In this document: one piece after another, positions 14,665-16,224 of the stretch | Position numbering within the stretch: the first letter of the stretch is position 1 | Layout of the letters: every line of letters starts with the position of its first letter | Assembly (NCBI GenBank): GCA_027062625.1 | Contig: JAMOSZ010000011.1 | Coordinates: 1 to 56,187 of the forward strand | Reading direction: 5' to 3' | DNA length: 56,187 nt | Source: Nautiliaceae bacterium | GTDB lineage: Bacteria; Campylobacterota; Campylobacteria; Campylobacterales; Nautiliaceae | Program-made: the position numbers and the translations under genes | The notes under the pieces: generated by a model | What the model was told of the DNA's origin: nothing | What the model saw: only the letters and a program-made list of their open reading frames with translations | Databases searched by the model: none

Positions 14665-15633
14665 CTATTCCACCATAAATTTAAATTTTTTGCCTGCAAA
14701 CATTGGTTTTATCTCTCCTACTAAATAAGGTGCTTGCCACTCTTTTTGGATTAATCTAACTTCTTTTTTAGGCACATTGATATTAAAATTCTCTCTTGCG
14801 TTGTTGCTGATAAATTTTTGGAAAGTATCAATATCATCTCCAAAAAACTCTGCAAGTGCCGGTAAGATTACTGGGGCTGAGAATATTCCAGCTGCTCCTT
14901 TTAGTTTGTTTTTGATTGTGTGAGGGGCTGAATCGCTTCCAAACATTACTTTTTTATGTCCTTTTTTTACAAAGCTTTGAATTGCGTCTTTATCTTTTGG
15001 GGTTTTTAGAATTGGCTTGCAAAAGTAGTGAGGATTTAGCATACCCCCAGCAACCTCATCAAGCGTTAAGAGTAAGTGATGGAGTGTAATTGTTGCATAT
15101 AAATTTTCGTATTTATCAAGCAAATCAAGTAAATCAGCAGTTCCAATATGCTCCATAATAATTTTTAACTTTGGGAAATCTTTTGCTATTTTTTCATATA
15201 CGCTTTTAAATTCTCTTTCTCTATCAAGTACAAATCCATTTGTTTCTCCGTGGACTGATAAAGGGATGTTAAGCTCACTCATTATTTCAAGCACTGGATA
15301 GATGTTCTCAATTGATTTTACTCCGTTTTGAGAGTTTGTTGTAATTCCAGCAGGGTAGAGTTTAATGCCAAAAATTTCATTTTTTAACTCACTAAGCTCC
15401 TCTTTTGAATATTCTCTCATAAAAAGATTCATAAGAGGGGTAAAGTCTTGACTATTTTCTAAAATTTCTTCTTTATAATTTCTTAATCTCTCTTTGTTAT
15501 CAACTGGTGGAATTAAATTTGGCATTATAACAGCTGCTGCAAATTGTTTTTGAGAAAAAGGTAAAACATCTTTTAAAATTTGACCTTCTCTTAGGTGAAG
15601 GTGCATATCAATTGGAGTGTCTAATATAATCAT
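14665..15633 (-). CDS. pyrC: Dihydroorotase
   Basis: 322 residues, class II type. It closes carbamoyl-aspartate to dihydroorotate in pyrimidine synthesis. Motifs: HLHLRE near 11-16 (metal-binding HxH), GIKLYPAGITTNS near 88 (carboxylated lysine), the metal His in PLSVHGE near 130, IIMEHI near 160, and the catalytic Asp in FGSDSAPH near 230. It has its own divergent promoter. The other pyrimidine gene in the window, carA, is far away at 54560. Confidence 0.95.
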   Translation of the reverse strand: MIILDTPIDMHLHLREGQILKDVLPFSQKQFAAAVIMPNLIPPVDNKERLRNYKEEILENSQDFTPLMNLFMREYSKEELSELKNEIFGIKLYPAGITTNSQNGVKSIENIYPVLEIMSELNIPLSVHGETNGFVLDREREFKSVYEKIAKDFPKLKIIMEHIGTADLLDLLDKYENLYATITLHHLLLTLDEVAGGMLNPHYFCKPILKTPKDKDAIQSFVKKGHKKVMFGSDSAPHTIKNKLKGAAGIFSAPVILPALAEFFGDDIDTFQKFISNNARENFNINVPKKEVRLIQKEWQAPYLVGEIKPMFAGKKFKFMVE

Positions 15634-15673: not shown

Positions 15674-15679
15674 ATTATA
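15674..15679 (-). promoter_or_regulatory. pyrC: -10 element of pyrC
   Basis: TATAAT on the minus strand, 41 bases upstream of the pyrC start. The left arm of the 12-bp inverted repeat (15681-15692) abuts its upstream side, so a protein bound there could also control pyrC. Confidence 0.55.
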
Positions 15680-15680
15680 G

Positions 15681-15709
15681 TTGACATATGTTCATAAAAA
15701 TGGTATAAT
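15681..15709 (+). promoter_or_regulatory. Consensus sigma-70 promoter of the NifX-like gene
   Basis: TTGACA at 15681-15686 and TATAAT at 15704-15709 with the ideal 17-base spacing. This is the only promoter in the window that matches both consensus hexamers inside a palindrome, which suggests a strong promoter held in check by a repressor. Confidence 0.8.
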
Positions 15710-15721
15710 AACATATGTCAA
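15681..15721. promoter_or_regulatory. 12-bp inverted repeat operator overlapping the promoter
   Basis: TTGACATATGTT (15681-15692) and AACATATGTCAA (15710-15721) are perfect inverted repeats 17 bases apart. One arm covers the -35, the other starts next to the -10 and covers the likely start of transcription. Each arm holds the 8-base palindrome ACATATGT, so the layout can be read as one large dyad or two operator sites 28 bases apart. It looks like a binding site for a dimeric repressor of ArsR or similar type; the regulator is not in the window. Confidence 0.7.
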
Positions 15722-15741
15722 AAACTTTTAAGGAGGGAAAA

Positions 15742-16224
15742 ATGAGAGTAGCATTTCCAACAAACAATCAAAAAACAATTGCAAATCATATTGGACTTGC
15801 AAAAGGATTTTTAATCGTAGATACTGATACAAATGAAAGAATTTATCTAAAAAATCCTCTTTTAGATAGAGTAAAAGAGGTAGCTAACTTGCCAGAAGGG
15901 CAAAGGGGTCTTGGAGTTGGTAGGATTGTACCTGCGTTATTAAGAGAAGAAGGAGTTGATGTTTTTGTTGCAAGAGATTTTGGAGAGGGGATGATTTTAA
16001 ATCTTCAAAGAGAAGGGATTAAACCTATTGTTACTAATGAAAAAGAGATTGATAAATTTTTAGAAAATTTTGATGGTAGCAGAGTTGATTTTGATGGTGT
16101 GATTGATAGAGGTTATGGAAGAGGACTTGGAAGAGGATATGGTTTTAGAAGAGGATTTGGTAGGGGATATGGTAGAGGATTTGGTCGCGGGTATGGTAGA
16201 TTTTGTAGGAGAAGATGGGTTTAA
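15742..16224 (+). CDS. NifX/NafY-like (dinitrogenase Fe-Mo cofactor biosynthesis fold) protein with Arg/Gly-rich tail
   Basis: I choose the ATG at 15742, which has AAGGAGGG before it; the ATG at 15715 lies inside the operator. This gives 160 residues. Residues 1-110 match the NifX/NafY/MTH1175 fold: RVAFPTNNQKTIANHIGLAKGFLIVD, a central GLGVGRIVPALLREEGVDVFVARDFGEGM, and KPIVTNEKEIDKFLEN. Residues 122-160 are a low-complexity tail of GRGYGRG-type repeats ending in CRRRWV. No nitrogenase gene is in the window, so a nif role is not implied; relatives near MRP-type ATPases suggest Fe-S or metallocofactor handling. The tail could bind nucleic acid or metal. Confidence 0.8.
   Translation: MRVAFPTNNQKTIANHIGLAKGFLIVDTDTNERIYLKNPLLDRVKEVANLPEGQRGLGVGRIVPALLREEGVDVFVARDFGEGMILNLQREGIKPIVTNEKEIDKFLENFDGSRVDFDGVIDRGYGRGLGRGYGFRRGFGRGYGRGFGRGYGRFCRRRWV

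Follow-up and report, generated by a model that had tools for sequence, protein, structure and literature searches.

A probable DUF134 operator pair at the promoter of an apparently relocated IssA-like gene in a Nautiliaceae bacterium

The IssA protein of Pyrococcus furiosus functions in thioferrate storage and is produced under conditions of plentiful sulfide and iron (PMC5524996). The authors of that study proposed that the anionic thioferrate chain is held by the cationic Gly/aromatic tail of the protein, and they suggested that the same role is possible for bacterial homologues (PMC5524996). MrpORP and orange protein, which have the same fold, carry small clusters (PMC6345978). Among characterised DNA-binding proteins, the system most relevant here is DeoR of Bacillus subtilis, which recognises its operator (ATTGAACAAAATTTCAAT / ATTGAACAAAATTTCAATTACCAATTTACATATGTTCAA) through base contacts in TTGAACA and through R34 and R39 (PMC11229326). 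DUF134 (PF02001/UPF0251) is an uncharacterised helix-turn-helix family that is spread over Bacteria and Archaea. Among 5.39 million open papers, DUF134 is named in 22 and UPF0251 in one; in this literature we found the family mentioned only in passing and found neither a binding site nor a regulon for it. An open-literature search for the 8-mer ACATATGT, which forms the core of the sites described below, returned mostly primers and unrelated sequence.

The window analysed here is a stretch of 56,187 nucleotides from a Nautiliaceae bacterium. It carries a gene on the plus strand (15742..16224) that codes for a 160-amino acid protein, of which residues 10-110 (15769..16071) form a NifX/MTH1175-type domain (PF02579, 49.4 bits against a cut-off of 26.3). 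Structural matches of the fold include PH0822, TM1816 and orange protein, and a search of the PDB with the window protein as a single sequence returned only weak low-complexity or unrelated matches. The protein ends in a tail (16108..16221) composed of 14 Gly, 12 Arg and 9 aromatic residues, with no acidic residue, one Cys and a computed pI of 12. The preliminary description had correctly noted an Arg/Gly-rich tail but gave its length as roughly 39 residues, whereas it is 38. The structure model has low confidence and appears disordered from residue 116 onward, consistent with the unstructured, cationic and Gly/aromatic-rich tail that characterises IssA. Comparable Gly/Arg/aromatic tails end the Nautiliaceae orthologues, in which the tail Cys of the window protein is not conserved, and the computed pI of the whole protein is 10.0 versus 6.2-9.5 for these relatives. 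The window protein can be called IssA-like by architecture, and thioferrate storage would be its predicted function, against which the lower whole-protein pI of the relatives can be counted.

The start codon of the gene is most likely at 15742, where it is preceded by a putative ribosome-binding site (AAGGAGGG, 15730..15737, plus strand) that is also present, as ACTTTTAAGGAGGG, upstream of the orthologue in most relatives. An alternative in-frame ATG at 15715 is located inside the right arm of the palindrome described below, and automatic callers may therefore make the gene nine codons too long.

The gene is preceded by a sigma-70-type promoter that matches the consensus at 12 of 12 positions, with TTGACA at 15681..15686, a 17-bp spacer and TATAAT at 15704..15709 on the plus strand. 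It is the sole promoter of this quality between 14000 and 18000, and it confirms the consensus hexamers at ideal spacing that had been reported for this gene. Likewise, the perfect inverted repeat stands at the coordinates given earlier: its arms, TTGACATATGTT (15681-15692) and AACATATGTCAA (15710-15721), are 100% complementary and are separated by 17 bp. Each arm is its own self-palindromic site around ACATATGT, for which the full symmetric form is TTGAACATATGTTCAA, and the two centres are 27 bp apart. Because each arm is centred on this shorter palindrome, the element resembles two dimer-type sites rather than a single long palindrome. The left site (TTGACATATGTTCA, 15681..15694, core 15684-15691) overlaps the -35 hexamer. 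The right site (AACATATGTCAA, 15710..15721, core 15711-15718) is positioned over the predicted transcription start at about 15716, and the -10 hexamer falls between both sites. A second exact TTGACA..TATAAT promoter in the window (46497, plus strand) is not accompanied by a ACATATGT pair. An attenuator or other RNA hairpin for the NifX-fold gene was considered and rejected, because the left arm is located 5' of the predicted start and the repeat would not be transcribed whole from this promoter.

A Markov model of the window predicts approximately 1.25 perfect 12-bp inverted repeats within 40 bp, and there are two further such places. By itself, the inverted repeat is no more than chance would provide, and thus the case for its significance rests on comparison between genomes. 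The core ACATATGT occurs four times in the window versus 0.42 expected, and the two copies outside the palindrome (5038 and 14085) are located within minus-strand ORFs.

A scan for site pairs, as proposed in the preliminary description, revealed that the arrangement ACATATGT-N(8-30)-ACATATGT occurs once in the whole 1.48-Mb genome, at the window palindrome. The arm AACATATGTCAA has three exact copies in this genome, two of which are the window arms. The third (G000:C38:958-969) is on a separate contig, within the promoter of the only DUF134 gene of the genome (G000:C38:655-933, minus strand; PF02001, 76.6 bits against a cut-off of 27). Each of the 13 other Nautiliaceae genomes that carry DUF134 has this gene immediately upstream of the window-gene orthologue. 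The DUF134 promoters of all 13 contain two sites that are centred on CATATG and spaced by exactly 34 bp, typically in the form CTTGACATATGTTCAAAAAAGTTGTATAATTTCATTGAACATATGTTCAA, with TTGACA in the left site, the -10 hexamer between the sites and the right site near +1. The left site of the window aligns with the left site of these promoters. This comparison supports the earlier view that the palindrome is an operator-type element of the NifX-fold gene, and it indicates DUF134 rather than the ArsR/MarR/Rrf2-type regulator that had been suggested.

The DNA upstream of the window gene resembles the DUF134 promoter of the relatives fused directly to ACTTTTAAGGAGGG, minus DUF134 itself. The window pair has 7 bp fewer between its sites (27 versus 34 bp from centre to centre), and with this shorter spacing any cooperative contacts may not be the same as in the relatives. 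The contig that bears DUF134 retains neighbours that flank the operon in a relative, namely a gene of Sir2 type and a FAD-oxidoreductase gene that has decayed here. Because these neighbours are kept, it is most likely that the NifX-fold gene moved, carrying a copy of the operator, rather than DUF134. The decayed gene beside DUF134 (L087, positions 970-1500 of G000:C38) is sulfide:quinone-reductase-like and contains stop codons. In the relative G075 (L089:6721-7914), the FAD-oxidoreductase gene is intact and is divergent from DUF134.

We found DUF134 in 73 of 397 Campylobacterota genomes, representing 32 genera. Within 160 bp upstream of the 85 DUF134 genes, ACATATGT was found in 68 cases, compared with a mean of 0.66 and a maximum of 3 in dinucleotide shuffles. 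Two CATATG sites at a distance of 20-40 bp from each other are located upstream of 55 (shuffles: 0.04). A reversed-motif control gave no match in the 85 upstream regions. The exact ACATATGT is absent upstream of the remaining 17 genes, some of whose starts may be misplaced. When the strict pair was searched independently of DUF134, it was recovered from 37 genomes, 36 of which encode DUF134, compared with 73 of all 397 genomes (Fisher p 1.5e-29, uncorrected for phylogeny). This value overstates the case, as related species do not count as independent observations. That the region was simply inherited as a whole is nevertheless an unlikely explanation, since the genera are numerous and the flanks are variable. 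The single genome with a pair and no DUF134 (G440) was judged to reflect chance, as were pairs of CATATG within coding sequence (e.g. G104:C86 and G397:C23).

For stand-alone DUF134 genes in other families, the site is often located between the -35 and -10 hexamers. Many Campylobacterota carry DUF134 fused to a C-terminal NifX-type (PF02579) domain, which scores 43 and 29 bits in two proteins, falls below the cut-off in many others and has no match in one. These fusions suggest that the NifX fold is a sensing partner. Additional promoters with paired sites precede genes for cytochrome bd subunit I, pyruvate:ferredoxin oxidoreductase, a cation efflux protein, a DUF2202 protein and MinD/ferredoxin ATPases, as well as a second NifX-fold gene that is divergent from a SLAC1-type transporter. 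This gene set fits a putative signal related to iron, iron-sulfur and redox stress.

At four loci (L142, L143, L146 and L162), the fused DUF134-NifX gene and a DUF4492 gene are transcribed divergently, and two ACATATGT sites flank the promoter on the DUF4492 side. At two others (L141 and L160), the cytochrome bd subunit I gene occupies the divergent side of the fused gene. Pairs with a spacing of 33 bp are located upstream of pyruvate:ferredoxin oxidoreductase genes in two genomes (L244 and L245; G425 and G442). In another group (L115, L117, L118, L124 and L125), the DUF134 protein ends in a Cys/His tail that resembles a zinc ribbon. MinD/ferredoxin ATPase genes are downstream in several of these, and the site GCACATATGTGT is present in most.

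Outside Campylobacterota, a palindromic site of the same kind, with altered base preferences, is present at each of the six DUF134 loci that were inspected, which were individual cases rather than a survey. The DUF134 gene of Treponema has two TGACAAATGTCA sites, and that of Phocaeicola has a TGAACATTTGTTCA site. In Dongshaea, Citrobacter and Klebsiella plasmids, the gene after DUF134 has a NifB/NifX-family annotation, and the plasmid operons of Klebsiella and C. freundii also have a gene for the iron-storage protein Dps downstream. The plasmid DUF134-NifX operons carry two CATATG sites 25-30 bp apart upstream, mostly with GC flanks (GCATATGC). This operon is found on L249, L251 and L253 and in approximately 185 further plasmid records from Klebsiella, Citrobacter, Enterobacter and E. 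coli. The plasmids are often conjugative, and several of the operons continue with genes for a PaaI-type thioesterase and Dps. A search of viral contigs for DUF134 found nothing.

We conclude that the palindrome is probably a DUF134 operator pair, most likely one that represses the apparently relocated IssA-like iron-sulfur gene. A very different origin, as a chance inverted repeat in AT-rich DNA or as mere promoter sequence, would accord with the expectation of about one perfect 12-bp repeat within 40 bp per window and with the fact that the left arm is partly the -35 hexamer. However, the conservation of the pairs in 13 relatives, the phylum-wide excess of the site, its co-occurrence with DUF134 and the plasmid cases make such an origin extremely improbable. 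The preliminary description had instead proposed that a regulator bound to the palindrome could control pyrimidine synthesis and the metallocofactor-fold gene together. The divergent neighbour is indeed pyrC, which codes for dihydroorotase (14665..15633, minus strand; TIGR00856 pyrC_dimer, 334 bits against a cut-off of 293). Since the left arm abuts a possible pyrC -10 hexamer (TATAAT, 15674..15679, minus strand), binding of a protein there could interfere with both promoters in the window genome. Yet pyrC is located elsewhere in 16 relatives and adjoins the NifX-fold gene in none of them. The pyrC promoters of these relatives carry no operator site, as their few CATATG matches are all inside upstream coding sequence, and the operator travels with the DUF134/NifX-fold gene. 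Joint control was thus rejected as a conserved role and is very unlikely as the purpose of the element, and the contact of pyrC with the left arm appears to be a by-product of the rearrangement that leaves pyrC a bystander. Hindrance of pyrC by the bound regulator in this organism alone is possible but unsupported. Examining relatives that keep the gene pair for loss of the palindrome, as had been suggested, is inapplicable because no relative keeps pyrC beside the NifX-fold gene.

Crp/Fnr regulators of the HcpR/NssR kind have boxes of the form TTGAC-N4-GTCAA, and single arms (TTGACATATGTT) come near to this form. Crp/Fnr-type helix-turn-helix genes are encoded in every Nautiliaceae genome, with three matches in the window genome, and if such a regulator owned the sites then DUF134 would merely be a co-regulated target. 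This assignment is very unlikely, because the sites track DUF134 rather than Crp/Fnr genes, which also occur in Nautiliaceae members that lack both DUF134 and promoter site pairs, the symmetric form TTGAACATATGTTCAA is two bases longer than the Crp/Fnr geometry, and the plasmid versions TGGCATATGCCA and TAGCATATGCTA do not match the box. The site matrix does not keep the TTGAC-N4-GTCAA geometry either, and membership among Crp/Fnr boxes was set aside as less likely. More open to debate is whether, instead of storing iron and sulfur, the protein carries a metallocluster or acts as an accessory sensor that serves DUF134. The DUF134-NifX fusions of many Campylobacterota, the tight operon pairing on gammaproteobacterial plasmids and the small clusters borne by other proteins of the fold (MrpORP and orange protein; PMC6345978) all point in this direction. 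The long Gly/Arg/aromatic tail that is common to the Nautiliaceae operon proteins is a described trait of IssA, however, which renders a carrier or sensor role possible but somewhat doubtful.

With DUF134 as the repressor, the locus might operate as follows. Presumably two DUF134 dimers would bind palindromes of the TTGAACATATGTTCAA type, one covering the -35 hexamer and the other the transcription start, and in this way would most likely keep the strong intervening promoter repressed. These are classical repressor positions, and thus the placement of the sites favours repression over activation. In the relatives, DUF134 and the IssA-like gene would constitute one autoregulated operon. In the window genome, where the IssA-like gene seems to have been relocated with an operator copy to a position beside pyrC, DUF134 would act in trans. 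Repression would be released by a signal, most likely iron and/or sulfide status, which might be sensed via the NifX-type domain that is fused to DUF134 in many Campylobacterota or via the CxxxC of stand-alone DUF134. Once made, the NifX/MTH1175-fold domain could scaffold iron and sulfur, and the cationic Gly/Arg/aromatic tail could hold anionic thioferrate.

A broader proposal may also be considered, although we put it just short of probable. DUF134 proteins, alone or NifX-fused, may be widespread iron-sulfur- or sulfide-responsive repressors of TTGAACATATGTTCAA-type palindromes in several phyla. IssA-like thioferrate storage proteins would belong to their regulon, joined in some genomes by cytochrome bd, pyruvate:ferredoxin oxidoreductase, a cation efflux pump and MinD/ferredoxin ATPases, with the NifX fold serving as a metallocluster-sensing domain. 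We know of no sensor type in the literature in which a NifX-type domain fused to DUF134 senses an iron-sulfur species. The concrete operator and target set make DUF134 directly testable. If the IssA-like protein does store thioferrate, then this form of iron-sulfur storage would extend to vent bacteria.

Comparison with known systems places the window protein closest to IssA in its architecture. Both proteins have an N-terminal IPR003731/PF02579 domain and an unstructured Gly/Arg/aromatic C-terminal tail. In both, the one Cys is located in the tail, although this Cys is not conserved in the relatives of the window protein. Unlike IssA, the window protein is bacterial, has a shorter tail without the proline-rich part and is preceded by a DUF134-type operator. 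The fold is shared with the NifX and NafY nitrogenase accessory proteins, but identity as nitrogenase NifX was rejected because the window protein scores only 19 bits against the TIGR02663 equivalog cut-off of 112. As in the ORP/MrpORP operons of Desulfovibrio, NifX-type domains occur together with MinD/NBP35-type ATPases, which are downstream of DUF134 in some Campylobacterota, whereas control of the orp operons lies with sigma-54 and its cognate activator rather than with DUF134 (PMC6345978).

On the regulatory side, the closest solved helix-turn-helix to DUF134 by sequence is that of B. subtilis DeoR (7bhy, E 8e-4). A DUF134 model superimposes on operator-bound DeoR at 0.6 A over 41 residues, and sigma region 4 domains match likewise; Foldseek E-values for the DUF134 domain are weak, as expected for a domain so small. 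DUF134 cannot be counted as a member of the SorC/DeoR family, because its approximately 93 amino acids share the helix-turn-helix but include no C-terminal sugar-phosphate effector domain. DUF134 differs from DeoR (SorC family; PMC11229326) in having a NifX-type partner or fused domain in place of the sugar-binding domain, and in the genes that it would control. The similarities lie in the presence of two site regions per operator, in the half-site geometry and in both Arg residues of SRPTxSR. The symmetric DUF134 site, TTGAA-CATATG-TTCAA, has the half-sites and spacing of the DeoR operator (TTGAA-N6-TTCAA), and ACATATGTTCAA is contained in the right half of the latter. Both Arg residues of SRPTxSR are invariant in Nautiliaceae DUF134, and they would correspond to R34 and R39 of DeoR if the solved chain has a five-residue tag, as its length suggests.
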